From: Oidiodendron maius Zn
Taxonomy: Eukaryota; Ascomycota; Leotiomycetes; Myxotrichaceae
Direction of reading: 5' to 3'
Assembly (NCBI GenBank): GCA_000827325.1
Contig: KN832870.1
Span: 5,456,001 to 5,520,000, forward strand
Length of the DNA: 64,000 bases
The notes beneath the pieces were generated by a model. The model was not told the origin of the DNA. It saw only the letters and a list, made by a program, of their open reading frames with translations, and did not search any database. Of the stretch, positions 16,447 through 44,451 are shown piece after piece. Positions within the stretch are counted from its first letter, which is position 1. Every line of letters starts with the position of its first letter. Position numbers and translations under genes: made by a program.

Positions 16447-17254
16447 TTAAAGGTTAACCAGGCCGCTCACCTCCAGATCGGCTGGTAGAATTAGTCCCCT
16501 GACACCTTCACTCTTCAATCCTGGGTTACTCCTAACGAGGGTTCGATACTCCGGCGCACCTGGCCGAACAACATTATCCGCAACAATTACAGAGCCTCTT
16601 TTCAGCAACTTCAGTTCCTCGCAAACTTTGAAATCGGGTACATAGAGCTCTTCCTCATGGTCCAGAAATAGAAGGTCGACTTCACTAACCTTCCCTTGCT
16701 CTTTCAGTTGTCGAAGGGACACTTCTGCCGGACCGACTATGAAGGTTATCATTTCTGTCAAACCTGAAAGTTCAACTATCTCTCTAGCTATTGCTGCAAA
16801 GTCGGAATTTAATTCAAGACTCCACACATGAATACCCTGAGTGACTCCGTGGACTCGGCGCATGGTATCTGCAAATAAAATGGCGGAATAGCCGAGATAT
16901 CCTCCAAGTTCAACAATGACATTAGGCTTTTCCTTTTCAATGAGATTAGATAAGATATTGGCCTTGTGACTACCAATGCTGATCAGAAAATCGCACTTCG
17001 TTGAAAATTCGTCCATCGTATCGAGGACTTTGGATGGATTGCCCTTAATCTGTTCAATATCCGGATGCGACAGGATGAAAGAGAGAAGTTTCTGCTCTCG
17101 ACCATCGTTAGACTGTAGAGATTTAGTAAGATTGTGCGCGAAACAGGCCTAAAATATTCAAGAGTGGGTGACTCACCTCGATGCCCGTTTCAAAAGCTTT
17201 CCTGAGGGAAGGATACCTTTCCACAAGCTTTGCAATATCCTGCGGAAGGTCCAT
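16447..17254 (-). CDS. SAM-dependent O-methyltransferase, catechol-OMT-like
   Basis: Transfers a methyl group from SAM, probably to a catechol-type or small hydroxylated substrate. Two exons, 17254-17177 and 17112-16447, give 247 aa, close to the usual fungal COMT-like length. Motif I is IVELGGYLGYSAILFA (glycine-rich SAM loop). HVWSLELN follows as the acidic residue binding the ribose, and VDLLFLDHEEELYVPDF matches the COMT metal-binding region (Asp-His). IVADNVVRPGAPEY is the second metal-site block. All are intact. The intron begins GTGAGT and ends CTACAG. The gene is transcribed in the same direction as the FMN dehydrogenase next to it. Three AGGGG-containing repeats sit about 530-585 bp upstream. 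A role in the neighbouring pathway is inferred from position only. Confidence 0.88.
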
Positions 17255-17785
17255 GATGAAATACGTGATGTGGCTGATAGGCAATGAGTTGGCTGTGAAG
17301 TGGAGCGGGTACCCTGCGGTGAAGAATTGAGAAGAGGATACATCAAGATCGTGGGAGCACTCTGGGTATTTATATGTGGGTGCCTGTTCGCATTGACAAG
17401 GTTGTGATGCCGTATTCTCTCTCGGGCGCCGAACGAAAAGAGCTCTGCGAATGAACTGGCCTGTAGGCATGGCGGATCGTAGCAAAATATTCATTGTCAC
17501 GTACATGCCCTTCATACCTGCCATAATTAGTATAGCGCTGACGTGTAAATGGACTTTGGAAACTCCTAGAACACAAAAACAAGAATGTCCGTTTAAAATC
17601 CTGCGAAATGGAAGTTTTGGAGGAATACGGTCGCGCCCGAACATGAAAACTGGGGCTTTCGTCAGAATAGGACAATGGCCGGTTAGACGTATTGAGTAGA
17701 TTAGGTTTCAGTGACAATTATGCTAAGGGAAAAGTATGGTTGATGAAAGAAGTAGGCTCGTATCGATTTCTACTTTAGGAAGTCG

Positions 17786-17838
17786 AAAAAGGGGCTCGCT
17801 TCGATTTGTGAAAAGGGGTTCGCTTAAGAAAAGGGGGT
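17786..17838. repeat. Three imperfect AAAAGGGG repeats
   Basis: GAAAAAGGGGCTCGCTTCG, GAAAAGGGGTTCGCTTAAG and GAAAAGGGGGTGATTTC follow each other upstream of the methyltransferase gene. Each holds AGGGG, the core of the fungal stress response element. Seen directly; the regulatory meaning is a guess. Confidence 0.35.
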
Positions 17839-18159
17839 GATTTCCCAGTGTGTTCTAGCGGTTCGCCTACTTCTGATTTGCCCTAAAAAGTCTGAACGTG
17901 ACATGCATAAGATCGTTCATGTTATCAACAACAAGAGAGGATTCAAAATAAGACGTCTTGACTGATTATATTCTTTGGGGAAGTTGGGATGATCCAGGTT
18001 GTGAAATCGATCTTTGAGCTGCCTTACGTGTGTAATTATGGCCACTTCCCACGCCCACAAATCCCTTGAGTCGAGATAAGCCTAGAGAAGCACATATATG
18101 AGTGTATGTTTCTTTACCGCTTTAGTTTATTATATATGTGGACGATTTTTACATTCAAG

Positions 18160-19682
18160 CTACAATTTTGCTGCTCCAATAAGTTCCCTCTCAAGTCTAC
18201 TTGCATTAACCATGTCTGGCACAATTTCAGCCACGCTCGTCGCACCTGACAGCGCCATGTTTGTATGTAACTCTTCCTGTAGAATTTCAATCATCTTCCT
18301 AACACCTTCTTCGCCACCAACAGCCAGGGCATGTAGAAATGGGCGCCCGAGTCCAACTGCATTTGCGCCTAATGCCAGTGCCTTTACGATATCCGTACCG
18401 CGACGAATTCCGCCGTCAATATATATTTCCATCTTGTCTTTGATTAGGAAAGGAGCAAATTTTCTGATCTCCAATAGAGTAAGAAGTGGAGCCTGGGACC
18501 TACGAATTTCGTTAGTGTGAAGGGCAACCTATCCACGAGGATACATACGTATCCTGAGATCTACCACCGTGATTGGAAAGCACAATTGCTTGAACTCCGT
18601 GTCTATGGGCAAGTATGGCATCCTCTACTGATTGAATCCCCTTAATTACCAGAGGAAGAGAAGTCTCATTCCGAATCCATTCGATATCGTTCCAATCTAA
18701 ACGAGATGAAATATAACCTGTTGTCGACTTCGCAATTCCGCCACTTCCGGCATTGTTCTTGAATACTTGTCAGCACAATATTCAACCTTCCAATCACAAC
18801 TAACATTATCCCTAGCCTTTATTCTGCCATCCCTCTCTCTCTTTCCTAAGACTGGTGAATCGACTGTGAGCCAAATGGAACTAAATCCCAGCTTTTCAAC
18901 TCTTCTTATGAGCGACTTTGATTTTTCTATATCTTTATTGACATAAAGCTGAAAGAAAACGGGCTGCGATTTATCAATTCTTGCCGCCATGATGCTCTCT
19001 GGCGACATGCTGGCTCCAGTGCTAATAACTTGAATTAGTCCAGCTTTCCCAGCAGCAGAAGTGATACCACATTCTCCTTGTGGGTGCGCCAACTTATTCA
19101 ATCCACACGGTGCGACAAATATAGGCATAGAACTAGATTTTCCTAGAATCGTTATACGAGCATTGATGTTCTCTACGTTTCGCAAAATTCTAGGCCTCAA
19201 AGTGACTTTTCGAAACGCCCTTAAGTTGTGTGCTTTACTAATCTCATCGTCGGCTGCTGATTCGAAGTAGGCCCATGCAGTAGCCGTGACCTTTCGTTCA
19301 GCAGCTAGTTCGAAGTCCTTTAGATTCAGCAATACCGGGTCGCCTTCCGTTTCAGTAACGGCTTGAGTATCCAGGTACTTGATCTGTGATACAGTTGCAG
19401 GGTCTACATCACCGAGGGAGGCAGATGCAGGAAGCGTCTGATGTACTAGTTCAGGAGAGTGTACCAAATCATAGTCCGCCGTTATATCTCTGCTTTTTTG
19501 CCGGAGAAAGACATGGGCACCGCCGGGATGCGAATCGAGAAAGCCTGGAAATTCCACTCAGAAAAGTGAAGCATATACTGCATTGGAACTACATTACCCG
19601 TCACATCGTATATCTTCTCGTGGATGATAACCCAGCAGGAATCTTTCTCGCTGTGCTCTGCAACTTCTTTGGCACTCAACAT
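18160..19682 (-). CDS. Cytochrome b5-FMN alpha-hydroxyacid dehydrogenase (flavocytochrome b2 type)
   Basis: Oxidises an L-2-hydroxy acid to the 2-oxo acid using FMN and passes electrons to a fused b5 haem. Exons 19682-19598, 19544-18805, 18757-18549 and 18499-18160 give 457 aa. The b5 domain (about 1-75) has YDVTGFLDSHPGGA and a second haem histidine in DLVHSPE. The FMN domain follows with PIFVAPCGLNKLAHPQGE, QLYVNKD, WLTVDSPVLGKRERD, LPLVIKG (FMN lysine), LSNHGGRSQD (catalytic His plus substrate Arg) and IYIDGGIRRGTD. The 47-nt intron at 18804-18758 (GTTAGT donor, CTGAC branch) restores the frame that otherwise looks shifted. No mitochondrial presequence is seen, so it is probably cytosolic. 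It is divergent from a permease, with an AGCGTGGGG site between them. The true substrate (lactate, glycolate or a longer hydroxy acid) cannot be told. Confidence 0.92.
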
Positions 19683-19916
19683 GGCTTCAAACTTGCCGTG
19701 CACAAGAAAATTATGCTGCTAGAATATATCGAGAAAACTGTTGCTTATAATACCAAAAGAAGACTGACGAATTGGCTCTTGACCCTCCTTGGCCATGGAC
19801 CTGCGCCCGCGCTGCTAGCATTCAGATCTCTACTTTGCCATACACAGAAGAAATCCCACAAACTCTGCTACATTCTTCAAAACCAATTTCCGACATTCGG
19901 GTTACGACATTAAACT

Positions 19917-19925
19917 AGCGTGGGG
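19917..19925 (+). promoter_or_regulatory. Cluster motif AGCGTGGGG, copy 1
   Basis: Lies in the 633-bp divergent promoter between the FMN dehydrogenase (ATG 19682, minus) and the permease (ATG 20316, plus). The same 9-mer occurs at 28196, 29992, 44599 and, reversed, 44721. It contains GTGGGG, which also fits the CreA consensus SYGGRG. Confidence 0.5.
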
Positions 19926-20315
19926 GCAAGCGTAGGACCTGATCGGTTCATAGTGCGGGGTCATTTTCGGACTATCCTAATTATGGCAATATGGCAGAGA
20001 GCATTGCCGACAAAGGGAAATGCGGAGATGGAACCACGCGGTCTTTTTTCATGTAGTAAACCCTGTATTTTATTCGTTTCTGAGGGGAACCTTGTCAAAA
20101 GACGATGCATTGGATACTGTAAACTCTTCCTTAAGGGCCAATTGGGGAATGCGCCTCTTTTTTGGGGCTAGCAATGTACGCAAATCAGCAAGTAAGGCTA
20201 TGGGATAATATAACACTACCTTCATCCTTGGGGATCTCGGTTCATATAAATTTTTTTCTCTTTTGTTTGGTCACCAGCGTCACCCATCATTACGACAAAA
20301 TCTCATACCAGAAAT

Positions 20316-22185
20316 ATGGCTGACCGCGAACAAAATCCTCAGGGTGCTCGGAATATCGATACTGGCGCCAAGAAATCGGAGAATAACATCGAGCTTTCAG
20401 AGAGCGTGGACCGGGTTGCAGTCGACCACCATGAAGCGCTGTCACCATCATCAACGATTCCAGCTTGGAAGTCGCTTAACCAAGTAGATGGGGATACTGC
20501 CCTTGCTCTCTTTGACAATGCTGAGCAGTTGAATGAAATTGTTGACCCAGCCGAAGAAAGGAGACTTGTTCGGAAGATCGACATGCTGATACTGCCGTGT
20601 CTAATTGTCTGTTATACGTTCTACTATGTAAGCATTTGCCTATCTTATGACTTAACATGTGGCTATTACTAAGATTTGCTTAGGTTGATAAGACTACACT
20701 ATCATATGCTGCAATATTTGGCATTAGAACTGACCTGAATCTTGTCGGAACCGAGTACTCCTGGCTTTCTAGCGTGTTTTACTTTGGATGGTTGGTGTGG
20801 GCGTTCCCTACTAATTACATGCTGCAACGATTTCCCTTGGCAAAGTATCTCGCCATCAACATTTTCATGTGGGGAGCTCTCCTTATGTGCCAAGGTATTA
20901 AGTTATCAAAGATGTATATTTATATCCATTGCTAAGTTAATTTATAGCTGCTGCAAGAAACTTCACCCAGCTTGCCGTCTTGCGCATACTTTCTGGAGGA
21001 GTAGAGGGCTGCAGGTCTGTTTATTTCACTCACTGAGTTTTATGAGTTAATTAATGAGCACAAGCTAATGTAACGTTTAGTGATTCTGCGTTTATGCTTA
21101 TAACGACAATGTGGTACACTCGCCGTGAGCAGCCAATAAGAGTCGGTATCTGGTATACAGCAAACGGTCTGGGTAATGCTATTGGAGGTCTCCTTGGCTA
21201 CGGAATAGGGCACATTAATGGCAGCCTTCCATCATGGAAGTATGAATTCCTAATTGTTGGTGCCTTATGTTGCGTGTGGGGAATTATTCTCTTCATTTTC
21301 CTTCCAGACTCCCCAGTCACGGCCCGTTTCTTAACATACGACGAGAAAAGAACATCTGTCGAGCGTCTCCGCGAGAACCAAACTGGCGTTGAGAACAAAC
21401 ACTTCAAGCTGTACCAAGTGAAGGAAACATTTTGTGACTACAAGACTCTCATGTTTTTCTTTATTGCTACGTTTGCCAATATTCCGAATGGAGGCATCAG
21501 CAACTTCGGAACACTCATTATCAAAGGCTTCGGCTTTTCAACTTGTATGCCTGTCCCTAGTTTATACCAATGCATTACTGACTATTTGGCAGTGGTTACC
21601 ACTCTAATGGCGATTCCATATGGTGCTATCATTATAATATCAATTCTCACTTGTGTATTCATCAATGATCGCCTCCCCCCGAATAACCGATATATAATGG
21701 CAGTTCTGTTTCTTCTTCCCAGCTTCGCCGGCGCGCTTGGGCTGCGTTTTCTGAGCTCTGATCATCGTGTTGGCCTTCTTATAATGTATTATCTCACTGG
21801 AACCAATCAGGCAGCATTCGTCCTTATCCTCTCAATTTTAACTGGAAATACAGCAGGACATACAAAGAAGGTCATTACTAGTGCGACGCTTTTCGTTGGG
21901 GTGTGTGTCGGCAATATTGGCGGACCGTTCTTTTATAAATCCAATCAAGCTCCAGAATATCGCCTCGGAATCGGCTCAATGATCGTGGGCTATGCTGTGG
22001 AAATAGGGTTAGTCTTTACGCTCGGCTTGCTATTGAAGAGAGAGAACAAGAGGAGGGATGCCCTTCAAGGCATCGACAGATCATCCACTGCAGCGGATGA
22101 GTTTGAAGCTCGGAGGGAGCTTAATGCTACTGCTTTCAGTGATATGACTGATCGAGAAAACATGAACTTTCGATATGTCTACTGA
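20316..22185 (+). CDS. MFS anion permease, allantoate/Dal5-like family
   Basis: Plasma-membrane importer of an organic anion. Five exons, 20316-20627, 20684-20894, 20948-21014, 21081-21544 and 21593-22185, give 548 aa. A hydrophilic tail of about 90 residues comes first, ending in EERRLVRKIDMLILP. Then follow the family segments DKTTLSYAAIFGIRTDLNL, EYSWLSSVFYFGWLVWAFP, MWYTRREQPIRVGIWYTANG and the half-way loop PDSPVTARFLTYDEK, and the tail ends DRENMNFRYVY. The DKTTL/YAAIFG and RREQP motifs are diagnostic of the Dal5/Tna1 group. About twelve transmembrane helices are present and nothing looks broken. It shares its promoter with the FMN dehydrogenase. A second family member lies at 26267-27944. 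The likely cargo is a carboxylate used by the cluster, but that is inference. Confidence 0.92.
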
Positions 22186-22531
22186 CGGCAAACGCTGAGA
22201 TGGAAACAATGAATTCTCGCGCATAGCTATCTGCATAGTTATATTTTTGTAGAGGTAAAATATATCTAAGAAAGTCTTTAAAAAAGATTGTCACATTTGA
22301 AGTTGGCCACAATTTCCTGTGCTTTGGTGCGATTATCCACGCTGTCCTTGAAAAAGCTCGAAATAATTGCGGTGTGGATACATCGAAATAGCCTTACAAT
22401 AATTGGTGGAATAAATAATTGATTACAGGAACACGTACAGGTTATCATTAGCGATTTCTTACGCATATGCGCAGTATTGGGACCCAAGCTCTCGCCCGGA
22501 AGTTGGACTCTCGGATATCCCCACAACAAAA

Positions 22532-22540
22532 CCCCACGTT
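22532..22540 (-). promoter_or_regulatory. Variant cluster motif AACGTGGGG before the NRPS-like gene
   Basis: CCCCACGTT on the plus strand, 222 bp before the ATG at 22762, differs in one base from the AGCGTGGGG motif of the neighbouring promoters. A second CCCCAC lies at 22519-22524. Confidence 0.35.
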
Positions 22541-22761: not shown

Positions 22762-25700
22762 ATGGCATCAACGACAACAACCGTGTTGGAGACATCCAAA
22801 GAGTCTGCCTCTAACCCGACGCGAAATCCTTTCATACCTGTACATTCCACAATCGACGAACTTCTAAGGTCTTACGCTGCAGAACCAGTCAATACCCCGC
22901 TAGTTGGCTATCCGGTTCACGGCGTGAGCGATTTTGAAGAGTATACTGCAAGGGATTTGGACCGATTTGCGGATGCAGCGGTTGCGAGATACATGAACGT
23001 TGGAATTGAACCTGCCGTAAGTAACTGTCTGTCTATATTCCACGTTCGGGTTGGTGTATGACAACAATCGAAACTAAACGCTTCAGGACCCTACTCAAGA
23101 GAAGGCGCCAATTGTTGCTATTTTGGCTCCGTCAAGCCTTGAAATAGTTGTCAGTATCTTCGCACTCAATCGACTGGGATGGGGAATCTTGTTTCTATCC
23201 ACAAGGCTGACGGCCCCTGCGTATATACGTCTTCTCGAGATGGCTGAATGCTCAATGCTGATTACAAACACAAATTTCAAGGCCACGCTACAGGCTATCC
23301 AAGCAGTAAGGGGAGTTAAGTCAATACCCATGTTGGAGAGAACGCATTACCGGGATGTTTTGGCGCCTAAATTCCAGCGCGTGTGCGATCCTGCGAAGGA
23401 ATCTCATAAAATTGCTTGGATTATTCACTCATCTGGCTCAACCGGCTTTCCCAAGCCCATCTTCCTCTCTAATTACGCTTGTCTGGCCAACTTTTGCAAG
23501 ACACTCGCTCGGCGTGCATTTTGTACATCGCCACTATTCCACAGCCATGGCCTCATGGAGTTATTTCGTTGCATTTATTCAAAGAACACATTCTTCCTCG
23601 GCAACTACGCATTTCCAGTCACGCGACAGAATCTGGTAGAGGCTATGAGTGTAGCCAAGCCAAAAATGCTCTGTGCAGTACCTTACGTCATGAAGCTTCT
23701 GGCTGAGAGCGACGACGGAATGAAGGCACTGGCGCAGACGGAGTTGGTTTTATATGCCGGAAGCAGTTGTCCTGATGATCTTGGTAACAAGCTCGTGGAG
23801 AGGGGAATTAACGTGGTGGCCAACTACGGGGCGTAAGTCATGCGCAACTCAGACTCGCGACTGTATGTCAAGATACTAATACTACGAAGGACTGAGACTG
23901 GACAAATTATGACCTCATTCCGTCCAGCAGGAGATAATGAATGGAGTTGGATGCGTCTCAAGTGCCCGGTTGCTGACCATGTGCTTATGGATGAAATCTC
24001 GCCTGGAATCTATGAATGCGTTGCCTTGGATGGATTGCCATCAAAGGGGCCATCCAATTCAGATGACCCTCCAAACTCTTTTCGTACCCGAGATTTATTC
24101 ATTCGCCATCCGGATCCTAAAAAGCCAAATTATTGGAAATATGTCAGCCGTCTTGACGACAGAATTACCCTCTTAAACGGAGAGAAAGTGCTTCCGATAC
24201 CGGTCGAGGGTCGCATCAGGCAGTCCGAACTGGTCAAGGAAGCAGCTATGATGGGCGTCGGCAGAGCTGCTCCGGGTCTCCTTGTATTTAGAAGCGATAA
24301 TGCTGCTAAATTAACCAATGAAGAATATATGGCCCGGATTTGGCCTTTAATAGAATCTGCGAACTACGTCGCGGAGACTTTTGGGCGCATACCGAAGGAA
24401 CTCGTGGTTTTATTGCCTGCGGATGCCGACTATCCTCGTACAGATAAGGGTACATTCATCCGTGCGCAGCTATATGAGAAATATGCTACAGTCATTGATG
24501 AGATATACAGTCGTTTCGAGAATGATGAAGTGGGGACGCTCCAGCTTGATGTACCGAACTTAGAAGTATGGCTCACGAGCAAGTTTCGGGATGAGTTTAA
24601 CGTCATCTTGGACACTGTTGAAAGTGATATATTCTCTGCCGGCGTGGATAGCTTGCAGACAATGCGCATGTGGGGCATCATAAAAAAGGAACTGGACCTT
24701 GGAGACAGAGCGGGGGAGTTGAGTCAGAATGTCGTCTTCGAAAAGGGCAACATTCGATCACTGGCAAAACATCTCTACTTCCTACGGACTTCTGAGGGAG
24801 ATGAAGACGTAGACGAGATTAAGTTAATGCGCGAACTTATTGAGAAATACTCTGACTTCAAGAGGGTTACCGTCGAAAATCTACCACAGCCCGAGAAAAA
24901 CTGCGCGGTAAGTAGCTATAGAGTAAGTAAATATGGACTATTTTAGACTAATAGATGCACAGCTTATTACGGGAACAACTGGCAATCTCGGCAGCTTTCT
25001 TCTCGCCAGTGTTATCAAGATGGAGAGCGTCTTCAAAGTTGTGGCTCTGGTGAGGGCAGCAGATGAGTCCACTGCCCTATCCCGTGCTCTAACTTCTCTA
25101 TCTTCTCGTGGTTTGAATCTTACTGAACACGAAAAGGAGAAACTGGTTGCATTACCTAGTGACTTTAGTCGCTCTGATCTCGGTCTATCCAATGAAAATC
25201 TGGAAATGCTTCTCTCGAGCACCACCCATGTCATCCACAGCGCCTGGGCGGTGAACTTCAATCTCGGCGTTCGGTCCTTTGAAGAACAACACATTAAAGG
25301 GGTGCATAATCTCTTGAATTTATGTCTTCGCGTACGATTTGCGTTTCCAGCCAAATTCTTCTTTTGTAGCTCCGTTTCTGTCGCAGGTGGGACTCCCAAA
25401 CCCGCTTCAATACCCGAAAGGATGATTGAAGACCTCAGCCACGCCCAGAATATGGGTTACGGTCGAAGTAAGCTCGTCTGTGAGCATATTGTTCGTAACG
25501 CCATGAGATCCACAGGGATGACGGGACAAGTTCTCCGAATCGGACAACTAGCCGGCGATGGAGTTACCGGTGTCTGGAACGAAACGGAAGCGGTCCCTCT
25601 GATGATCAGGAGTGCAGTGAGTATTGGGGCATTACCAAAATTGGAAGAGGTTAGTTCAAAATTTAAATCTATGATCAAGAGTCCAAGAGGACCCTGCGAA

Positions 25701-26221
25701 GAAATCACTGACGGGCCTTGTAGGATGTGTCATGGCTCCCTGTCGATATTTGTGCAAACACAATTCTCGGATTGGTGTTTCCACAAAAAAGAAAAGCTGC
25801 GACCTCTTCAAACGGTATCGCTGACTATGATCTCGTGTATCATATAGTCAATCCACAGAGATTCCACTGGACGAGGGATCTTCTTCCAGCCCTAATGCGC
25901 ACAAATATTTCCGCATTTGAAACAGTTGACGCAATGGAATGGTTGGATAGACTAAAGAATAGTAATCCGGACCCTATTAAGAATCCCACTTTCAAGTTAT
26001 ACGACTTTTATGCTGCGAAATATGGTGCTACTGGTAGCGCACGTAGCGGAGAGTCGACAAGTGCTGTTACAGAGATTGCAGATGAAGATGTAAAAGGGCT
26101 GCTCTTTGAAACTCAAGAGACGATTTCACACTGCCCGTTGTTAGGGGCAGTACCCGACTTGATCGAACAGGGATATATAGACCGCTTCGTTGACAACTGG
26201 TTGAAAAGATGGAACATCTAG
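22762..26221 (+). CDS. NRPS-like carboxylate reductase: adenylation, carrier, reductase (A-T-R)
   Basis: Activates one carboxylic acid as the AMP ester, loads it on a phosphopantetheine arm and releases it reductively as aldehyde or alcohol. Exons 22762-23016, 23087-23832, 23890-24907, 24963-25649 and 25724-26221 give 1067 aa. The adenylation domain (about 20-560) shows IIHSSGSTGFPKPI (A3), SPLFHSHGLMELFR, NYGATETGQ (A5) and DYPRTDKGTFIR with the A10 lysine. The carrier domain (about 565-650) has DIFSAGVDSLQT with the serine for the pantetheine arm. The reductase domain (about 680-1060) has LITGTTGNLGSFLLA for NADPH and the active-site YGRSK. There is no condensation domain. An AACGTGGGG site lies upstream. 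The start at 22762 is the first true ATG. A homologous but dead reductase tail lies at 45775-46905. Substrate unknown; the A domain resembles the aryl-acid-type NRPS-like reductases. Confidence 0.94.
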
Positions 26222-26266
26222 CAAGGAATAGCGGTCTAGAACCAACAAAACCTTTACATATATTAT

Positions 26267-27944
26267 TCAATAGATATAAACAAACGCATCATTTTTTCGA
26301 TCCGTCACGTCTGACACATCAGCATCCATTGAGCCATCCTCAATGCCGTCTTCTTCTTTGACGTCGGTATATCTAGCCATCATGGAACGATCCTGAATTG
26401 TTGCGCTCCTCCCATTCAATACCCTCTTTCTGGCCTGCATTCTGTTTAAAAACACAAGATTTGCTAGCTGTACAAAAACAAGGACAAATAGCGCAACAAA
26501 AATTCCTAACACAGCGCGAAGGCCAGGGAGGTATGCTGGAGCATCTTTGCTAGTAAACAGCTGAGGGCCTACGAGGTTGCCAGCCGAGACTCCAATGTTG
26601 AAAACACACATAACGAGAGACTTCTTGGTTTGTCCCGCCGTATTCCCTAAGATCCAGCTTACAATGAGCGGATTCGCGCCGTATAGGAATGCAAGGAAAT
26701 AATAGCCTGCAAGTAGACCGCCCTGGTGGCTATGATCGCGCGGCAGGACATAAAGGGTGGTTAGTCCAGCTACCACAGGGAGCACAAGGATAGCCACCAT
26801 GATGAACTTCACACGAACCCTCTGGACAATGTAAGAAGCTACCATGATGATGATGGACTGAACGGCGCCGAAAGGCATGTTTAGGAGTGAGGTGATATTT
26901 TGATTGAATCCGAGGCCGCTCAGAATCAGGGGGCCGAAAACGTTGGTAACGGATGCTCCTACATTTAGGAGGAGAGCCATGCTGAACCAGAGATATGTCT
27001 TTGGGTCCAAAAACCCCTCTATGACGTGGTCCCACTTAAAAATTTCGGATCCTATTCCGGTCTTATTTGCTCGGAGGCGCTCAACGGCCTGTGCACGCTC
27101 GCGCTCCGTCAAGAATCGAGCCGTAGTGATATCATTTTCGAGTTTCCAATAAACTATCGGAGCGGTTACAATAGTAACAAGACCCACAAAGAGAAAGATT
27201 ATCTGCCATGACTTAAGAGTCGGGGATGGAATTTGACCTAGCCCGTACGAAATTGCCGAGCCTATTATTGTTGCGACCCCATTCATGGCGTACCATATGG
27301 CAACTCTTAGCGGCTGCTCAGCTCGACGGTACCACTGACTTGTAATTATACTGAATAGTGGAAGGCAAGCAGCTTCGAAAAGGCCCAAGAAAAATCTGGT
27401 GGTTGCAAGTCCAGCAAAGTTATGACAGGCCGCCATCGACGCCAATGCAAGGCCCCAGCCAAAGACCAATGAAGCCATAAGGATGCGGCTCGGAATCTTG
27501 ACAATCAAGAACGACGCAAAAGGAAGCCAGATTAGTTGTGCAATTGGAGCCATAGAGCCAACCAGAGAGTACTGGCTTCCGACAAGCCCGGTATCTTTCT
27601 GAAGACCAAAAACCGCGCCATAGCCAAGAACGGACTTGTCAAGAACCTTTAGAGTTTAGATTTTTAGCTCAAATGACTCAGTACTAAGGTATGGTAATGC
27701 GGACCTGGAGGAAATACACCCAAACAAGAATAGGAAGAATAACTTTATCCGTTTTCCGCAGAATGATCCTGTTCTACAAAAAGTCAGCGGAATATGTGAC
27801 ATTGCAAATTGCGAAAATAGATGTTCAAAAGCGCCATACATCTTCCTCCGTCACTGTAATATGTGGCCGATGATCAGCACCATTTTCGACATCCTCTATC
27901 TGATCAGTAGTGAAATCTTCTTTGGCGGCAGACGCGGATGGCAT
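26267..27944 (-). CDS. Second Dal5-like MFS anion permease
   Basis: Exons 27944-27840, 27773-27705 and 27646-26267 give 517 aa. The short first exon (MPSASAAKEDFTTDQIEDVE) and the 69-nt second exon (RKTDKVILPILVWVYFLQ) restore the N-terminal helix; after the third splice the protein continues VLDKSVLGYGAVFGLQKDTG, GSQYSLVGSMAPIAQLIWLP and YRRAEQPLRVAIWYAMNG, the hallmarks of the Dal5 group. The first splice of exon 2 to 3 uses a slightly unusual GTCCGC donor. About twelve helices are present and the tail ends KNDAFVYIY, much like its partner at 20316. It is convergent with the NRPS-like gene (45 bp apart) and divergent from the ketopantoate-reductase-like gene, sharing an AGCGTGGGG site with it. 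Probably imports a substrate or exports a product of the block. Confidence 0.92.
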
Positions 27945-28195: not shown

Positions 28196-28204
28196 AGCGT
28201 GGGG
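28196..28204 (+). promoter_or_regulatory. Cluster motif AGCGTGGGG, copy 2
   Basis: Lies midway in the 472-bp divergent promoter between permease 2 (ATG 27944, minus) and the ketopantoate-reductase-like gene (ATG 28417, plus). GTGGGGAATCT on the minus strand is 25 bp away. Confidence 0.5.
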
Positions 28205-28416: not shown

Positions 28417-29603
28417 ATGTCAGCTCCAACTTCTGTGAATATGACCGAGAAAACCAACGTCCTGCTCTTTGGTCTCGGAGCGTACGTTGACCTTCATTTG
28501 TACGGCCAGAATTAACCTAAAAGTTATAGTATAGGGTCATTCTACGCTTTCATATTAAGTCGCAAGGATACAGTCTCCTTGACAGTGGTGGCACGGTCTA
28601 ATTATGAGGCTGTTAAAAATAATGTACTATTTCTACGAATTGTAAAATCTGGCCACGCTCAGCTAACTGAGACGTGTTAGGGCCTTACAATAGAGAGTGA
28701 AGTCCATGGAAAACATATATATTATCCTGACCAAGGTATAGCTTCCAGCTTACAGCTTTAGATTGCCCAACGATAACAATTTCAGTTGTAAAAAGCCCTG
28801 CGGATGCAACTGGGATGTACGATTTTGTTGTGTGCGCGAACAAAGCTATCAATCAAAACGCAGTACCAGAGAAACTACGTCCTGTCATTGATGGCAAGGA
28901 CACTACACTTGTTATCATACAAAATGGCGTCGGCAACGAAGAGCCTTTCCGCGAGGCATTCACGGAAAACACGATCCTTACCTGTGTGGCATGTTTCACC
29001 CCCACGCCTGCAGTACGAGAAATGTTTACTGACAATGGACAGACGTGGGTTGGAGCAAGCCAGGCAGTACCGGGCATTGTCAAACACACAAAATCTGAGC
29101 ATACGCAAATTGGCTTGTACCGCAATCCAAAACTTGGCGAGGAGCAAGAGCAGAAGCGGTTGGAGCGATTCACGGCTCTCTTGAGTGCAGGAAATACTCC
29201 GTTTGATGTGGAAGAGAATATGCAATTAAAGCGCTGGGAGAAGGTGGTGTGGAATGCTGCATGGAATTCTCTCACTACACTCACCTTGCTTGATACTCAG
29301 TCTTGGCTAAAGTCCTCGCCAAGGGCCATGCCCATGACTCGACAGCTCATGCGAGAAGTTATTGACGTCGCTCAAAAGTGCGACGTGCCGTTGCAATACG
29401 ACTTAATCGATCAACTTATCGATAAAATTCTAGCTATGCCAGGAATTGGAAGCAGCATGCAAGCTGATTTCAAAGCTGGGAGAAGGATGGAAGTTGAAAT
29501 TATATTAGGCTATCCTGTTCGTAAAGCTCACGAGCTGCAGGTGCCAACTCCGGTCCTGGACACACTATACACACTTTTGACAGCTATAAACAATCGACTA
29601 TAG
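28417..29603 (+). CDS. Ketopantoate reductase-like 2-oxo acid reductase (ApbA/PanE family)
   Basis: NAD(P)H-dependent reductase of a branched or sugar-derived 2-oxo acid; classical members make pantoate. Exons 28417-28481, 28530-28623, 28681-28735 and 28786-29603 give 343 aa, normal for the family. The nucleotide-binding fold begins VLLFGLGAIGSFYAFIL (GxGxxG). VCANKAINQNA and IIQNGVGNEEPF follow, the latter with the conserved Asn-Gly. The catalytic-lysine region is seen as WEKVVWNAAWNSLT and the C-terminal helical domain carries SSMQADFKAGRRMEVEIILG with the conserved Ser/Asp and Glu, all intact. It is divergent from permease 2. In a cluster with a dehydratase and an aldolase it may reduce a 2-oxo intermediate rather than make pantothenate; that is inference. 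Confidence 0.92.
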
Positions 29604-29991: not shown

Positions 29992-30000
29992 AGCGTGGGG
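29992..30000 (+). promoter_or_regulatory. Cluster motif AGCGTGGGG, copy 3
   Basis: 362 bp before the aldolase ATG at 30362 and 389 bp after the stop of the reductase gene. Confidence 0.5.
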
Positions 30001-30361: not shown

Positions 30362-31342
30362 ATGTCTCCTGCAACGATAAGCTCCTCCTCTGAGAAAGGT
30401 GGCCCAACTGCGACACTAACCGGAAGACCACTTGTTTCCGGCATATATGTTCCAACGGTTGCCTTTTTCGACGACAAAACAAACAGCATTGATGTGGACG
30501 TTATTGAAAAGCATGCTATTAGACTTGCAAAAGCAGGAGTAGCGGGTCTGGTGACACACGGCAGCAATGGCGAAGCAGTTCACCTAGATCACCGAGAACG
30601 AATGCTTATCAATGCCGCTACCCGACGTGCACTTGATGCTATTGGCAGACAGGACATGCCCGTAATAGTCGGGTGTGGTGCACAATCAACGAGGGAGACA
30701 ATACAGCTCTGTATTGAAGCTTCTCGCTCTGGAGGCAGCTATGCACTTGTGCTTCCGCCAAGTTACTACGGGTCTTTGTTGACGCCTAACTTGATAGTCG
30801 ACTATTTCCGAGATGTGGCCAATGAAAGTCCAATTCCGTTACTTGTCTATAACTTTCCTGCAGCATGCAGTGGCTTAGATCTCAACTCGGACGTGATATT
30901 GCAATTATCAAAGCATCCAAATATCGTTGGGGTTAAACTCACTTGTGGCAATACGGGAAAATTGGCGCGCATTGCGGCAGGCACAAGTGAAAGGTTCTTA
31001 ACTGCAGGCGGATCAGCGGATTTCATCCTCCAGACCCTTATAGTTGGCGGTGACGGCGTAATTGCAGGTCTTGCCAACATAGCCCCGAAGGCTTGCGTGA
31101 GAATAATGAATCTCTACAAGACGGGCAAGGTGGATGATGCTCGAGAAATCCAAGCCATTGTCGCGCGTGGAGACTGGACGGCGATTAAAGGTGGTTTCGT
31201 TGCTGTTAAATGCGCACTTCAAATGTTTTATGGCTATGGTGGACTGCCACGAAAGCCCTGTGCCATTCCAAGTGAGGAAGGGTTGGAGGACATCAGAAAA
31301 GGACTTGCTGAGTTGGTCAAGCTGGAAAATAAGCTCGATTGA
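30362..31342 (+). CDS. DapA-family aldolase (2-keto-3-deoxy-acid aldolase type)
   Basis: Class I Schiff-base aldolase of the dihydrodipicolinate synthase/N-acetylneuraminate lyase family. Single exon of 326 aa. The first true ATG is 30362. The oxo-acid-binding motif is GSNGEAVHL (family GTTGE/GSNGE), the general-base tyrosine is in VYNFPAACSG, and the Schiff-base lysine is in VGVKLTCGNTG; the glycine-rich GGDGVIAGLANIAP closes the site. Fungal relatives include the galacturonate-pathway aldolase, which splits 2-keto-3-deoxy-L-galactonate into pyruvate and glyceraldehyde. Bacterial-type lysine synthesis is absent from fungi, so a catabolic aldol cleavage is likely. The upstream region holds AGCGTGGGG and GTGGGGAATCT sites. 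Together with the galactonate-dehydratase-like gene at 41748 it gives two consecutive sugar-acid steps. The exact substrate is not fixed by the sequence. Confidence 0.92.
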   Translation: MSPATISSSSEKGGPTATLTGRPLVSGIYVPTVAFFDDKTNSIDVDVIEKHAIRLAKAGVAGLVTHGSNGEAVHLDHRERMLINAATRRALDAIGRQDMPVIVGCGAQSTRETIQLCIEASRSGGSYALVLPPSYYGSLLTPNLIVDYFRDVANESPIPLLVYNFPAACSGLDLNSDVILQLSKHPNIVGVKLTCGNTGKLARIAAGTSERFLTAGGSADFILQTLIVGGDGVIAGLANIAPKACVRIMNLYKTGKVDDAREIQAIVARGDWTAIKGGFVAVKCALQMFYGYGGLPRKPCAIPSEEGLEDIRKGLAELVKLENKLD

Positions 31343-38226: not shown

Positions 38227-40304
38227 ATGCGACTCTTGCAAACAGCAACCTTACAATTGGAAGAATTCTTCGCGAGTAGTGCAATCGATCAGAGGCTAGA
38301 AAACCAAAGAATTCCTAAATACGCCATACTCTCCCACACATGTGAGTTGGCCAAGGCTAATAGTTCCCTTGTATGGGAAAAAGTCTCCGCAATAGCCCGT
38401 AGTTCAAACAGAATAAAAATGTCAATCTTGCTGCAAGCAATCCTGAGTTGTACAGAAATGTTAACCGGCTGACTTCTCCACTCTATTAGGGGGCTTTGAA
38501 GAAATCACCTTTCAGGATATCACGGGAGATAAAACCATTATACAGCACAAAGCTGGATTTAACAAAGTTCGAGACAGTTGCAGACAAGCTCGCGCTGATG
38601 GTTATGCATATATTTGGATCGACACATGCTGCATCGATAAGACAAGCTCTGCCGAATTATCCGAGGCTGTAAATTCGATGTATCAATGGTACAAAGACTC
38701 TGCAATTTGCTATGCATATCTTTCCGATGTTCTTATATATCCCGAGGCCCCAAATTCAACCCACCACCCTCAGCAACCATTTTACGCAGAAGATGGTATG
38801 CAATACAGCTCATCACCTTCCTTCTCCCGCTGGTTTTCGCGAGGATGGACATTGCAAGAACTCCTGGCTCCGGCCAAGCTCCAATTCTTTGATAAGAGCT
38901 GGAATTCCATCGGGATGAAAGAAGATCATATGAACGTCATTTCAGTAATTACCAACATCGACCTATTTGCCTTAAATGGAGGGGATTTGCGACGACTAAG
39001 CATTGCTCGCCGGATGTCATGGGCTGCCAATCGTCAGACTACCCGTATCGAAGACATGGCGTACTGTTTGCTCGGAATATTCGGTATCAACATGCCACTA
39101 TTATATGGAGAGGGCGCCAAGGCCTTTATTCGTCTGCAAGAAGAAATATTGAAGATCTCAAACGACCAGTCGCTCTTTGCCTGGAAGTATCCAATCATCG
39201 AATTCTATCGAGACGAGTATTCAGAAGATTTCAAGCTTCAGGGGCTTTTGGCGCCCACCCCAGAGCTCTTCCGGCATTCCGATACTATTTCACAATTCTA
39301 TTCCGAAACTGCAGGACGTGCCTTTCCAGTATCTACCAATAAAGGAATCCAGGTTGAATTCTTGATGTGTCAGGATATGGGTTACCCATCTGGGTTGGTG
39401 TATTTAGCGATATTGAACTGTCCTGTTGGGCATGTTCCCGGACGGCTACCAGCAATTCATCTAAAACAACTTTCTCCCAGCAGCGAGCAGTATACACGTG
39501 TTGATACGTCTCAACTCTTCATGTTCAGCTCCTATGACTCCGCGGGTCGGATCGAGTTAGAGGGTTTCGACCCAAGGAAGCCGCAGCGTCAGTTGGTAGA
39601 GATTCGTTCAAGTAAGTATGTTTTTGTTAGCACGTTTTTAATTTTTATGCTAACGTTTCTGGGATGTAGGGACTTTGTACTCGGACTGGACTGTCCAGAC
39701 CATCTTCATAAAACAAGATACTCAGTTTGCGTTACCGCCCGGATTCTGGTTGGTAATTCCTGAACCCTTTTCTGATTCCGACATGGTGGTTATTCAAGCA
39801 CATCCACGGGACCTTTGGGATCCAACAACTAGGTTCCTGCAACCTCAGGTTGATTTCAAACAAGGGCTAGGGGCTTTGGAAGCCAGGAAATTGGGTGCAT
39901 TTCTCATCAGATGGGAGCAATTTAGTATAGAGACTGAGCGGCAGATCACTTACTGCGTTCTTATTTTTGGGATTACCTGCAGCGGTTTCGTTCCCTGGTG
40001 CTATATAAGCCCTGCAATAGGATTTAATAAGGAGCTTTATCAGCAGATGAGTTTGGGGCCTCGGGAGCAAGCTGATTATTTCCAACAGCCTCGGACCAAT
40101 ACCTATCTGCAGCACGAATTTGATAACTTTCGTGTCGATCCTTTCTCAATTGGTATGGATCTGGAGGACTCCAGAAGACACGTACATATTTGCAAAGATC
40201 TGCAGCTAGCTACTATAGCTGAACTTAGAATTGTTTCGGGGAAGGAAGTTTATCTGCTTCACTTACTCACCATGTCGAAATATCTAGATAGATGGTCCAG
40301 TTAA
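38227..40304 (+). CDS. HET-domain protein, HET-D/E-like N-terminal type
   Basis: Exons 38227-38341, 38490-39611 and 39670-40304 give 623 aa. It begins MRLLQTATLQLEEF and has the HET-D/E style domain: YAILSHTW, an intron, GFEEITFQDI, AYIWIDTCCIDKTSSAELSE, SMYQWYKDSAICYAYLSDV, SRWFSRGWTLQELLAP, RRMSWAANRQTTRIEDMAY and LLGIFGINMPLLYGEG. The 148-nt first intron splits the tryptophan of SHTW. After about residue 260 there is no NACHT or WD40, only a 360-residue tail of unknown fold with the blocks YLAILNCPVGHV and GFWLVIPEP. It is close in the HET domain to the receptor at 55296-59465, so it could act as a partner executing domain, as known for stand-alone HET proteins in other fungi; that is inference. 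Confidence 0.9.
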
Positions 40305-40379
40305 TCGAATGTCAGAAGTTGCGAATTCTAGTTGCTAAAATTTATATGATAAAAAAGCATCTCTAAAATTGCTCCCATG

Positions 40380-41000
40380 GAATATTTGAAATGATTCCCA
40401 AATACTTATAACACTATATTAAAAAAAAAAACGAACTAATATTGAGGAGTTACTTTATTCTTTTAATTAAGAAAATAAACTTTATTAATTTTAAATTATA
40501 ACTTAAGTATTTAAAATGATATATATATTAATTATATATAATAAAGTCTTATTATAAGAGTCGAAGTAGCCTATTATATTTTAACTTCTAAGACTAGATT
40601 ACTATTATATAAGCTCTTTAATAAGAAGGACTTAAATCTGCTCTAGCAGGAATTTAAAAGGGAGCAGAAACGGATTCTCGCTAAAATTCAGGAAACTATA
40701 GCTGGGCATATAGGAGGCCAAATAGGTACTATATTATAATACACTGGCTAACTCAGGCATCCTCAGGATGCTTAGGCTTGCTCGGGCTTGCTCAGGCTCT
40801 GCTCCAGTATGCTCAACCTCGGCTCAGGTTAAGGCAGCAGTTGCTACGTCTGTAGACTAAAACAGAACCAGCGAAAGAGAAAACTAATCCTAAGTCTCTA
40901 GGTATCCGGAAGCTAGTCTAGTTTTAGTGCTAAGTAACTAACTTAAATGCTAATACTAAAGCCCTAAAGACTAATATAATGGGCTGTATGAAGGAGAACA
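40380..41000. repeat. A+T-rich degraded repeat, RIP-like
   Basis: Strikingly TA-rich DNA (runs such as TATATATTAATTATATATAAT) with few CpG, followed at 40745-40835 by degenerate GCTCAGG-type units. It looks like an old repeat hit by C-to-T mutation. A short stretch near 40640-40730 has a coiled-coil-like, lysine/glutamate-rich reading that might be an ancient retroelement piece. Family and ends cannot be set. Confidence 0.4.
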
Positions 41001-41747
41001 TGTTATAGATGCTGAAACCACTTGATTTGAGTCATCTAAGACTGTATTTAGAATTCTAGCTTAGTCATGAAGTATAAAGGTGGTGGTTGAACCCAGCTTT
41101 AGATATACAGAGCATTTTTGCCTGAAAATCGAAGCTATCACGTGCGCTTAAATTAAGCCCCTCTCTGCCATACGCGTAGAGCTCGGGGTTATCCATTTTC
41201 AGGGCCACATTTCATTCCGAGAGAAGGCACGTCCTTATTCTTGGCGTGGTGCTAGTGTGGGACCTAGAGTGGGGGACCTTTAAGGGAGGATTTCGACTCC
41301 TAGGATAGTTAGCTGACTACTTCATTGGAGAATCAGGCTCCGAGTTCACAGATGAACCCGGTTTTCCGCTTTTGCTCCATCCAAAAACACCTTTTAATGT
41401 TAGTCCAGATCAAGTCTTGATAGCTATAGTGATTGTGTTTTCACTTCCCCACACCGAGCATCTCAGTCGGATCGAGTTCAGGTCTAGATCACACGGCATG
41501 GAGACACGCTGGCCAGTTGCACGTGTGGGACCGTAATACGTGGTGGGGTTGTACCTACCCCGCAGCAGACTACCACTCTTTACGATGGCCAGCGAGCTCC
41601 ACCCCGAACTCCATCCGTTCGCGGCCAGGAAGCTTAGAGTTTAATTTTGTCATAATATATGAGCAGTGGTTTCGTAGTCTTCTGAGACCGAATTGTGGAA
41701 GTTCTCTACGTCATCTCTTCGCACTTTTCCGTCACAAATTCTTTACC

Positions 41748-43068
41748 ATGACAAAAATAAAAAGTATTGAATATTTCCGCGTCAAGCCTCGCTGGCTTTT
41801 CGTGCTCATTAAGGACGAATCTGGTGGATATGGATGGGGCGAGGCAACGCTTGAAGGCCATTCACTAGCTGTGGAGGGAGCACTAGATGAGATGATTGTT
41901 CGCCTCTTGGGTTCTGAAGCAGAGTAAGCTCTAGTCAATGTCCTTTCGTATATTTTGAGCTTTGCTAATAGAAGTAGCGACATCGAACATATCTGGCAAA
42001 CGATCTGGCGGCATGGATTCTACCGTGGCGGTCCTGTCTTCATGTCTGCTCTCTCCGGTATCGATATCGCCCTTTGGGATCTCAAGGGTATGTCAAGGAA
42101 CAAACGGGAATGTATTTCAATCATCGAGAGTATCGCTGACAGTTTTATTTGTAGCTCGTAACTTGAAGGTGCCTGTCTATCAGCTTCTTGGTGGCAAAGT
42201 GCGCAACAAGGTCCAAGTTTATGCGTGGATTGGTGGAGATCGACCAAAAGACATTGAAATAGCAGCGTAAGTTTTTAGCCCATCTAATTTCATCTGGCTA
42301 ATAATACATCCTAGAAAAGCACGTATTTCACAGGGTCTTAAGTGCATCAAAATGAATGCCACAGAAGGCGTAAATTGGCTTGATTCGCCGTCAGTACTCG
42401 ACTCCTGCGTTGAGCGACTGAAGGCGGTCAAGTCTCTAGGCTTGGACGCTGGATTGGACTTCCATGGCCGCTTGCACAAGCCCATGGCAAAACAATTAGC
42501 CAAGGCTCTTGAACCCATCCGCCCTCTATTTATTGAGGAGCCTCTCCTTGTTGAGCATCCGGAAGCTTTAAAACTTCTCGCCGGTCAGACCACTATTCCC
42601 ATCGCATTTGGCGAACGATTATACACGAGATGGGATGTTAAGAGATTCCTCGAAGATAGCACAGTCGATATTCTTCAGCCTGATATTGCACATGCAGGTG
42701 GCATATCTGAGACTCGTCGCATAGCTATAATGGCCGAGGCATACGATGTGGGTATTGCACCACACTGCCCGCTTGGACCAATTGCCTTTGCTGCATCTAT
42801 GCAGATCGCGCTATCGACACCAAATTTTGTCATCTGTGAGATGAGTTTAGGAATGCATTATAATGTGGAAGCTGGAGATATTGATCTCACTTCGTATTTG
42901 GTAGATGAAAGTGTCTTTGACATCAAGGACGGATATGTCATGGCCCCCACTGGAATTGGCCTCGGAATCGAGATCAATGATGAGATGGTGCGGAAGATAG
43001 CGAAAGACACGGAACCATGGCAACCAAAAAGCTTTTTCGGTCCAGATGGGGCAATTCGGGAATGGTAA
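41748..43068 (+). CDS. Enolase-superfamily dehydratase, D-galactonate dehydratase (DgoD)-like
   Basis: Removes water from a sugar acid to give the 2-keto-3-deoxy acid. Exons 41748-41923, 41972-42087, 42155-42266 and 42315-43068 give 385 aa, the length of E. coli DgoD, which it resembles throughout. Matching blocks: [66 protein letters not shown] (metal Asp and catalytic His), LFIEEPLL (metal Glu), [12 protein letters not shown] (metal Glu), [14 protein letters not shown] and [13 protein letters not shown] (catalytic His). All metal ligands and both histidines are present. Its partners in the window are the DapA-family aldolase at 30362 and the KduD-like SDR downstream. The upstream 500 bp hold three GTGGGG hexamers (41269, 41447 reversed, 41543). 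Substrate is inferred from family resemblance. Confidence 0.95.
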
Positions 43069-43078
43069 ACCGAAGCAG

Positions 43079-43110
43079 GTAATAGAACAGAATAGAACAG
43101 AACAGAACAA
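43079..43110 (+). repeat. AATAGAACAG microsatellite after the dehydratase stop
   Basis: GTAATAGAACAG, AATAGAACAG and AACAGAACAA follow one another directly downstream of the dehydratase stop codon. Confidence 0.6.
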
Positions 43111-43281
43111 ACTGCGTGTTATAAACTTTGAATTAGAGTTGCTATTTAGTAGAATTATGTTTACTCAGTATTTGATTGTGTAATCTTACTTATACATTTG
43201 TGAGAATATATGCCAAATATGCAATTCATCGAATGTCTCAGACGGCGTTCATCATAGGTATATGCATTGCAATATAAACTA

Positions 43282-43464
43282 CAGTAGAACCTCGATATAA
43301 GAATCCTCGATATAAGAATACTCCACAAAAAACCTCTATATTCTTACGTGATACAAAGGTCCCGAAATAGTATTTGGGTGTAAAAGTTTCTCGATATAAA
43401 AATACCTCAGTATATTCTTATAAATTTTAGGTCCCGATCGTATTCTTATATTGAAGTTCTACTG
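43282..43464. mobile_element. 183-bp pogo-type MITE with TA target duplication
   Basis: The left end CAGTAGAACCTCGATATAAG and the right end (complement CAGTAGAACTTCAATATAAG) form terminal inverted repeats of about 22 bp, flanked on both sides by TA (43280-43281 and 43465-43466). The start CAGTAGAACC is typical of pogo/Emigrant-like Tc1-mariner MITEs. The left side has a tandem copy of CTCGATATAAGAAT. It has no coding capacity and sits between the dehydratase and SDR genes. Confidence 0.8.
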
Positions 43465-43517
43465 TAATCTAAGTCCTGTTTATATTATTCACTGACTGCA
43501 AGATTATTTATATTCAA

Positions 43518-44451
43518 CTACCGTCCCATCCAGCCTCCGTCTACAGTTAGAATCTCTCCAGAGACGTACAAACTCGCAGCACTAGCCAGGAACACGACAG
43601 CTCCCTGAAAATCCTCTGGTGTGCCCCAACGGCCTGCTGGAATTCTTGCCAGAATACTCGCTGCCCGATCTTGGTCCGCAATCAATGCCTCGTTCATATC
43701 TGTTGCGACATATCCCGGTGCAATTGCATTTACATTAACTCCTTTTGACGCCCATTCATTTGACAGAGCCTTGGTCAGCTGTGCTACTCCTCCCTTTGCT
43801 GAGGCATATGCTGGAACTGTAAGGCCTCCCTGGAAAGAAACCAGGGAAGCTACATTGATTATGCTTCCACGGTGGCCGGATTCCGTGCTCCGAGTGAGCA
43901 TATAAGCTCCAAAATCGCGACACAGTGTGAAGACAGTAGATAGGTTGACTTGGAGTACCTAGAGGATTTGAGAAATTGGTCAACGATCAATACGTGAGAT
44001 AATAAAGTGGGTTCAAAAGATCAGATTATGTACCTCATCCCAGTCGCTTTTGGGGAAGAGATGACTTGGGTGTCGTCTCTGAATACCGGCGCAATTAACC
44101 AAAATATCAACGTCGTGTCCATCTGCTAAGATTGTCTTTGCCAATATTGAGACGTCTTTGTCAGAAGATAAATCCGCCGAGTAGATATATGCCTTCCGAC
44201 CGACCGACTCTATCTTCTTTTTCGTCTCCAAAACTTTATTGTCTCTCTAGCAGAATACTCATCAGCTCTCTCGGTACTGTACATATTGGCTAGGTAACCA
44301 AGACAGATGATCATACTTGAACAAGAATAATATCAGCCCCAGCCTCCGCAAGGGCTATTGCCATCTGTTCACCAATCCCTCTGGTCGCACCAGTTACGAC
44401 GGCATTCCTCCCTTTGAGTGAAAATAGCCTAGTAAGGATGTTCTCTGCCAT
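43518..44451 (-). CDS. Short-chain dehydrogenase, 2-deoxy-D-gluconate 3-dehydrogenase (KduD)-like
   Basis: NAD(P)-dependent sugar-acid oxidoreductase. Exons 44451-44317, 44246-44034 and 43958-43518 give 262 aa, classical SDR length. Rossmann motif [20 protein letters not shown] (usual NNAG with a Cys), the active-site Ser in [19 protein letters not shown] (Tyr-x-x-x-Lys) and the end DGGWMGR. The run [33 protein letters not shown] and [15 protein letters not shown] closely follows bacterial KduD, which acts on 2-keto-3-deoxygluconate-type compounds. It is convergent with the dehydratase gene. Its upstream region carries two AGCGTGGGG sites. The likely role is a redox step on the deoxy keto acid made by the dehydratase; the substrate is inferred. 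Confidence 0.93.

Follow-up and report, generated by a model that had tools for sequence, protein, structure and literature searches.

We analysed a stretch of 64,000 nucleotides from the ascomycete Oidiodendron maius Zn (contig KN832870.1, positions 5,456,001 to 5,520,000; hereafter the window, in whose own numbering all positions are given). A preliminary description, made from the letters alone, had pointed to an unfamiliar cluster at 16447-44451 that combines a sugar-acid dehydratase, an aldolase and a short-chain dehydrogenase (SDR) with a flavocytochrome, two permeases and a nonribosomal peptide synthetase (NRPS)-like reductase. A gene finder, for which the long reading frames of the window served as training set, gave 22 models, 20 of which were covered by the Pfam scan. 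Models were corrected by hand where the protein family demanded it: in the flavocytochrome at the cytochrome b5 exon, in the SDR at the C-terminus, in both permeases at the N-terminus and in the regulator at the finger exon. The window's genes have short GT-AG introns, and the HET domains, Fungal_trans factor and A4 peptidase that they encode suggest a filamentous ascomycete. Gene models, Pfam and motif checks recovered every enzyme class named in the description as a spliced, open gene. The genes in question are:

16447-17254, minus strand: O-methyltransferase, a COMT relative, at the left end of the block
18160..19682, minus strand: flavocytochrome b2-like dehydrogenase (cytochrome b5 and FMN_dh domains), 457 aa, 4 exons
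20316..22185, plus strand: anion permease 1, major facilitator superfamily (MFS), Dal5/ACS type (Pfam MFS_1)
22762..26221, plus strand: NRPS-like adenylation-carrier-reductase (A-T-R) carboxylate reductase, 1067 aa, 5 exons
26267..27944, minus strand: anion permease 2, MFS, Dal5/ACS type, 517 aa, 3 exons (Pfam MFS_1, on a model short at its N-terminus)
28417..29603, plus strand: 2-oxoacid reductase of the PanE/ApbA (ketopantoate reductase) family, 352 aa (Pfam ApbA and ApbA_C)
30362..31342, plus strand: DapA-superfamily aldolase, 326 aa (Pfam DHDPS, 138.5 bits)
41748..43068, plus strand: D-galactonate dehydratase, DgoD type, enolase superfamily, 383 aa, 4 exons
43518..44451, minus strand: KduD-like SDR, 262 aa, 3 exons
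47404-50339, plus strand: regulator with two C2H2 fingers and a Fungal_trans domain, the next intact gene to the right of the block

Most of these genes are joined by a rare promoter motif, and their co-membership is more than chance. Seven stretches of promoter from block genes were set against eleven others. The words CCCCACG and AGCGTGG each occurred in five of the seven block promoters and in none of the others, and the 8-mer ACTTTTCC in four of the seven and again in none of the eleven. The exact 9-mer CCCCACGCT has five copies in the 64 kb, counting either strand, and all five lie in the seven tested cluster promoters, with no exact copy in 35.3 kb of gene bodies or in 24.0 kb of other intergenic DNA. 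When one mismatch was allowed, 14 copies were found: eight in the 4.7 kb of cluster promoters, three in genes (one of these inside the PanE-type reductase gene) and three elsewhere. The promoter sites are placed as follows:

19917..19925, minus strand: exact copy, AGCGTGGGG, in the promoter between the divergent flavocytochrome and permease 1 genes, 235 bp from the start of the former
22532..22540, plus strand: one-mismatch copy, 221 bp before the start of the A-T-R gene; another GTGGGG is 7 bp away
28196..28204, minus strand: exact copy in a divergent promoter, 252 bp from permease 2 and 212 bp from the PanE-type reductase
29992..30000, minus strand: exact copy, 361 bp upstream of the aldolase start, with a one-mismatch copy at 29931-29939
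41266..41274, minus strand: one-mismatch copy, 473 bp upstream of the dehydratase start
44599..44607, minus strand: exact copy, 148 bp upstream of the SDR start, within the inverted repeat GTGGGG-TTA-CCCCAC
44721..44729, plus strand: exact copy, 270 bp upstream of the SDR start

A site in a divergent promoter does not distinguish which of the two genes it serves. Palindromes of the Zn2Cys6 type (CGG...CCG) were also considered as the shared motif and fell outside the leading palindromic triplets.

Because the motif came from scanning, the scan itself was put to a statistical test. Two unrelated gene groups might simply adjoin here and share the 9-mer by chance; there are just five exact sites, the motif was found first and tested afterwards, ACTTTTCC is likewise present in four of seven promoters, and a 10-kb stretch with HET and esterase genes splits the aldolase from the dehydratase. 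Against such a coincidence, a 10-mer, CCCCCACGCT, is present in four of the seven cluster promoters, and a 10-mer shared as widely arose in 0/400 sets simulated from the window, in 0/400 simulated from intergenic DNA and in none of 1000 real control sets, each composed of seven segments drawn from 38 other intergenic segments. A 9-mer shared as widely was reached in 8/400, 3/400 and 2/1000 of these sets, respectively, and none of 300 letter-permuted 9-mers attained five copies. Shorter words failed the test, an 8-mer at four of seven being reached in 30-36% of simulations. When the motif was learned on four promoters, a one-mismatch copy was present in two of the three that had been held out (A-T-R enzyme and dehydratase, P 0.02-0.03) and absent from the third, that of the O-methyltransferase. 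The GTGGGG half-site showed the same tendency, with 13 of its 26 intergenic copies in cluster promoters versus 4.2 expected, a count that includes the five discovery sites. With these figures, and with a motif core that fits the fingers of the nearby regulator, we consider a chance association improbable. The case for membership in a common regulon, as judged from exact copies together with the control statistics, is strong for four promoters (flavocytochrome/permease 1, permease 2/PanE-type reductase, aldolase and SDR). It is moderate for those of the A-T-R enzyme and the dehydratase.

The motif also bears on the extent of the cluster. The earlier view of 16447-44451 as a single block holds for most genes, which carry the motif, and does not hold for the HET genes, the esterase and the O-methyltransferase. 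Between 31343 and 41047 there is no copy at up to one mismatch, nor is there one in the O-methyltransferase promoter, where only the 7-mer CCCACGC occurs, at 18048; the methyltransferase was therefore dropped as a cluster member. Because the intervening HET/hydrolase stretch and the O-methyltransferase promoter lack the motif, we narrowed the limits and placed the cluster at 18160-31342 plus 41748-44451, with its regulator at 47404-50339. Independent expression of the two halves, which had been named as a finding that would speak against a cluster, is argued against by a promoter motif common to both halves, at the level of sequence.

The factor encoded at 47404-50339 is proposed as the activator of the motif-bearing genes. 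Its Fungal_trans domain scored 209 bits in Pfam, on a model that lacked the first finger; the finger exon was recovered in the corrected model. The helices of the fingers read RAEHLSR and REDLLSR. By the standard recognition code, the first finger should read GGG and the second GNG, giving 5'-GNGGGG-3', and this prediction fits the GTGGGG core of AGCGTGGGG. The fit is a match and not a proof, because G-rich cores are common among C2H2 factors. The predicted contacts of the two fingers, R-E-H-R and R-D-L-R, match those of yeast ADR1, and the two factors would also be alike in having a G-rich, inverted site. The ADR1 site is given as TTGGRG N(6-38) CYCCAA in the available text of PMC2536678. Unlike that site, the motif here is AGCGTGGGG and not TTGGRG, and just one of the five exact copies, that at 44599, stands in a close inverted pair (GTGGGG-TTA-CCCCAC). 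ADR1 (2adr, 43.3 bits) is one of many C2H2 structures that resemble the fingers, and many others score higher.

Among the enzymes, the dehydratase is the best assigned and can be named firmly on its family match, as the sole sugar-acid step above a curated specific cut-off. It passes the galactonate dehydratase model NF010624 (493.2 bits versus a cut-off of 311) and is 46% identical to a bacterial structure, PDB 3rr1, with D181, H183, E207, E233 and H283 conserved, which we take to be the catalytic acid/base and metal residues. The DapA-type enzyme is a candidate 2-keto-3-deoxy-D-galactonate aldolase. It scores 131.3 bits against the dapA equivalog cut-off of 206.15, and falls further below the archaeal KDG aldolase model (99.7 bits, cut-off 390). 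Its nearest solved relative is 3qfe, a putative family member, and its Schiff-base lysine lies in K-x-T as in YagE and 3qfe, whereas the 4-hydroxy-2-oxoglutarate aldolase compared has K-x-S. A scan of viral contigs for the aldolase gave no relative, and neither did a genome scan with a single query sequence. For both permeases the best NCBIfam model was the D-galactonate transporter TIGR00893, at 220.1 bits for permease 1 (query without its first 27 residues) and 155.1 bits for permease 2, with a cut-off of 395; such a match marks the anion-symporter family rather than the substrate. The SDR has kduD (TIGR01832) as its best model, with 315.2 bits, under the cut-off of 338.85, and could serve as a (galactose) dehydrogenase. 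The dehydratase alone is thus firmly assigned among the sugar-acid steps, because the permease, KduD and DapA scores are under their curated cut-offs.

With moderate confidence, we read the locus as a regulon by which the fungus would break down a galactonate-type sugar acid, the non-phosphorylated De Ley-Doudoroff (D-galactonate) module being the simplest reading. In this scheme, the ADR1-like C2H2 regulator would bind the AGCGTGGGG sites and turn on the motif-bearing genes jointly, the two anion permeases would import a galactonate-type acid, the dehydratase would convert it to 2-keto-3-deoxy-galactonate, and the DapA-type aldolase would cleave the 2-keto-3-deoxy acid. The SDR would use the 2-keto acid in its 5-keto or 5-hydroxy form. 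The PanE-type reductase, which passes its subfamily model TIGR00745 (186.8 bits versus a cut-off of 141.35), would interconvert 2-keto acids and D-2-hydroxy acids and so be linked to the same pool, and the flavocytochrome would feed this pool by oxidizing bulky (S)-2-hydroxy acids to 2-keto acids. We read the last three enzymes as side entries because their chemistries could meet at the 2-keto (or 5-keto) 3-deoxy acid. The analysis shows which genes are present, their catalytic motifs, the family of the dehydratase and the common motif with its statistics; the role of the neighbouring factor as regulator, the substrate, the activity of the aldolase and all directions of flux are inferred.

The flavocytochrome aligns over its full length with yeast cytochrome b2. 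The top match was PDB 1szf (344.0 bits over residues 2-454), and the wild type scored 339.5 bits; the FMN_dh domain scored 383.6 bits in Pfam on a model with a different first intron, and the HPGG haem motif is present in the corrected model. With the first half of the FMN domain as query of the PDB search, lactate oxidase, long-chain hydroxy acid oxidase and glycolate oxidase slightly outscored b2 (114.4 bits for the wild-type yeast enzyme, 119.0 for 1szf), and because of this the substrate is not settled by overall resemblance. The window's enzyme has glycine in both places where the yeast enzyme has A198 and L230, whereas 1szf has Gly198 and Ala230 (this comparison is based on the 1szf alignment, a check of the numbering, and PMC10153336). 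According to the available text of PMC10153336, A198 and L230 hinder mandelate, smaller residues raise mandelate oxidation, and bona fide mandelate dehydrogenases have small residues at the two positions. The flavocytochrome is probably not a plain lactate dehydrogenase and probably takes bulkier (S)-2-hydroxy acids, and L-lactate catabolism was dropped as its role on account of the Gly/Gly pocket.

The pocket admits another pathway, in which the (S)-form of an aromatic or long-chain 2-hydroxy acid is oxidized by the flavocytochrome, the (R)-form goes to the PanE-type enzyme, and an aryl acid is reduced by the A-T-R enzyme; the sugar-acid genes would be a second substrate branch under the same regulator. 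Glycine at both positions, as small residues mark mandelate dehydrogenases, would suit it, as would the slight lead of long-chain hydroxy acid oxidases over b2 on the half domain (a lead shared by glycolate and lactate oxidases), and several fungal A-T-R enzymes accept aryl acids (PMC9605436, available text). However, Gly/Gly shows an open pocket only, and sugar acids are bulky too; no enzyme that handles aromatic rings was recognised among the motif-bearing genes. We regard this pathway as quite unlikely.

The A-T-R enzyme has the Pfam domains AMP-binding, AMP-binding_C_3, PP-binding and NAD_binding_4, and the catalytic motifs of adenylation, carrier and reductase domains are all present. Its reductase domain is nearest to PDB 8aep (151.7 bits), and a by-eye comparison of the adenylation specificity residues gave no usable outcome. 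A specific tie of this enzyme to the sugar-acid steps, as the block had implied, is not borne out by its promoter, whose own copy of the motif carries one mismatch. To the right of the SDR, before the regulator, lie two remnants. At 45765-46905 (plus strand) a second A-T-R reductase domain survives as a relic interrupted by stops, with 30% identity to the window's own over 45765-46424, and therefore the locus probably once held another reductase; at about 45100-45560 (minus strand) there is, by eye, a probable MFS permease remnant.

DapA-type aldolases are reversible, and the locus might be biosynthetic: the A-T-R enzyme would make an aldehyde, the aldolase would add pyruvate, and the reductases, SDR and flavocytochrome would tailor the resulting 2-keto-4-hydroxy acid to a small exported product. 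A-T-R enzymes do yield aldehydes (PMC9605436, available text), the A-T-R gene is preceded by the one-mismatch motif and a tandem GTGGGG, and the flavocytochrome pocket is of mandelate type. On the other hand, a galactonate dehydratase of 493 bits feeds cleavage rather than synthesis, the permeases look like acid importers, and the 20 models scanned contain no gene for a polyketide synthase (PKS), a full NRPS or a P450. The methyltransferase, in addition to lacking the motif, lacks the lysine of COMT: it reads DHEEE where COMT has DHWKD, so that glutamate replaces the residue that serves COMT as catalytic base, and it may be inactive or have a changed chemistry. We consider biosynthesis unlikely. 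Of the two readings first offered, catabolism of an unusual hydroxy acid and biosynthesis of a small product, we favour the former, because the direction of the dehydratase-aldolase pair is that of cleavage and both permeases resemble acid uptake systems.

Several points weigh against the catabolic regulon for a galactonate-type acid. The A-T-R enzyme is unexplained, having no place in the pathway, and the permease, KduD and DapA models all stop short of their curated cut-offs. No sugar lactonase and no clear galactose dehydrogenase were recognised by Pfam among 20 of the 22 models. The Gly/Gly pocket of the flavocytochrome suggests bulky or aromatic hydroxy acids, and HET genes break up the block, with some 10 kb between the aldolase end at 31342 and the dehydratase start at 41748. 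We also compared the loci of the best 80 of at least 588 prokaryotic DgoD relatives (tblastn, E 1e-8; 73 of these loci are longer than 12 kb). Two of the 80 bacterial and archaeal loci contained the aldolase family, and none had the flavodehydrogenase, the PanE-type reductase, the permease or the A-T-R enzyme; an SDR at any identity was present in 22, and at 40% identity or more in none. Because of this near-absence, no inherited operon supports the gene set.

The proposed route has counterparts in other fungi. Enzyme assays described in 1991 revealed the D-galactonate route of Aspergillus terreus, which uses a dehydratase and an aldolase (PMC11219438, available text). In the non-phosphorylated De Ley-Doudoroff pathway of A. 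terreus and A. niger, as in the one proposed here, D-galactonate dehydratase is followed by direct aldol cleavage to pyruvate and D-glyceraldehyde, and the available parts of the two sources mention no gene cluster or dedicated regulator (PMC11219438, PMC9781776). In the window, by contrast, the dehydratase, the candidate aldolase, the permeases and the regulator lie close together, with an A-T-R enzyme. The fungal route is given as five enzymes, of which those of the penultimate step are "still elusive" (PMC9781776, available text); we take this step to be the aldolase from that paper's own list of five, and the DapA-type enzyme of the window is a candidate for it. An A. niger D-galactonate dehydratase and a gene named KDG aldolase were used in PMC8113861, where a strain that already carried galactose dehydrogenase and galactonate dehydratase lost its growth on galactose once the KDG aldolase gene was added. 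More recently, the route was offered as a possible galactose back-up in A. niger, with mention of six putative genes (PMC12744346, 2025).

The fungal D-galacturonate pathway (gaaA-D; GaaR) resembles the proposed one in that a sugar-acid dehydratase and an aldolase lead to pyruvate and glyceraldehyde (PMC9781776, available text). It differs in that the window's dehydratase is of D-galactonate type and that no aldo-keto reductase was recognised here in 20 of the 22 models. The regulators differ as well, since GaaR is a Zn2Cys6 protein and the one proposed here is of C2H2 type. In the L-fucose system of Trichoderma reesei (FUR1, FDH1, LGD1, LGA1), a sugar acid is likewise dehydrated and then cleaved by an aldolase, and one transcription factor is needed for growth, FUR1 being compared with XYR1/XlnR (PMC12370193, available text); in contrast, the window has a C2H2 regulator and a DgoD-like dehydratase. 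Both the galacturonate and the L-fucose cluster were set aside as the identity of the locus, the dehydratase being of DgoD type. The A-T-R enzyme is like the fungal reductases NcCAR, AtCAR and PnlA in domain order and catalytic motifs. Clade VI A-T-R enzymes are linked to non-reducing PKSs (PMC9605436, available text), whereas no ketosynthase was found here in the 20 models scanned.

The aldolase of the fungal D-galactonate route is disputed, being elusive in the available text of PMC9781776 and represented by a named A. niger KDG aldolase in PMC8113861. A co-regulated group of dehydratase, DapA-type aldolase, permeases and regulator would offer a named gene for assay and a DNA site that can be traced in other genomes. 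In open-licence papers searched by exact words, we found none that links galactonate dehydratase or DapA-type enzymes with NRPS-like or other biosynthetic clusters, and none that combines the block's enzymes or D-galactonate with C2H2 factors. If the carboxylate reductase belongs to the regulon, this would be the first link known to us between its class and sugar-acid breakdown. Very tentatively, the regulon may join De Ley-Doudoroff cleavage to an ATP-driven carboxylate reductase that turns the sugar acid, or a hydroxy acid of the same pool, into an aldehyde, as a salvage or product route; we found no description of a sugar-acid route of that kind for fungi.

The stretch between the aldolase and the dehydratase holds the following genes, as judged by Pfam, and one fragment:

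32050-32256, strand opposite to the HET gene at 33586-35858: HET fragment, 32% identical to the C-terminal part of that gene
33586-35858: HET gene
about 36626-37742: alpha/beta hydrolase (esterase)
38227-40123: HET gene

In the same stretch lies an AT-rich patch, 40001-41000 (35.4% GC in the 1-kb window at 40001), with a raised TpA/ApT ratio of 1.21. A second AT-rich patch, with TpA/ApT raised to about 1.2, is located at 51001-53000, and both are possible remains of mutated transposable elements. Outside the block, a gene for a TauD/TfdA-family dioxygenase is present at 8053-9566, with no motif copy nearby at up to one mismatch. A low-GC gene at 52564-54085 (33.5% GC in the 1-kb window at 52001) has no Pfam match, and its stretch CIYIGSSYGTSGLKNRI resembles, by eye, a GIY-YIG-type motif.

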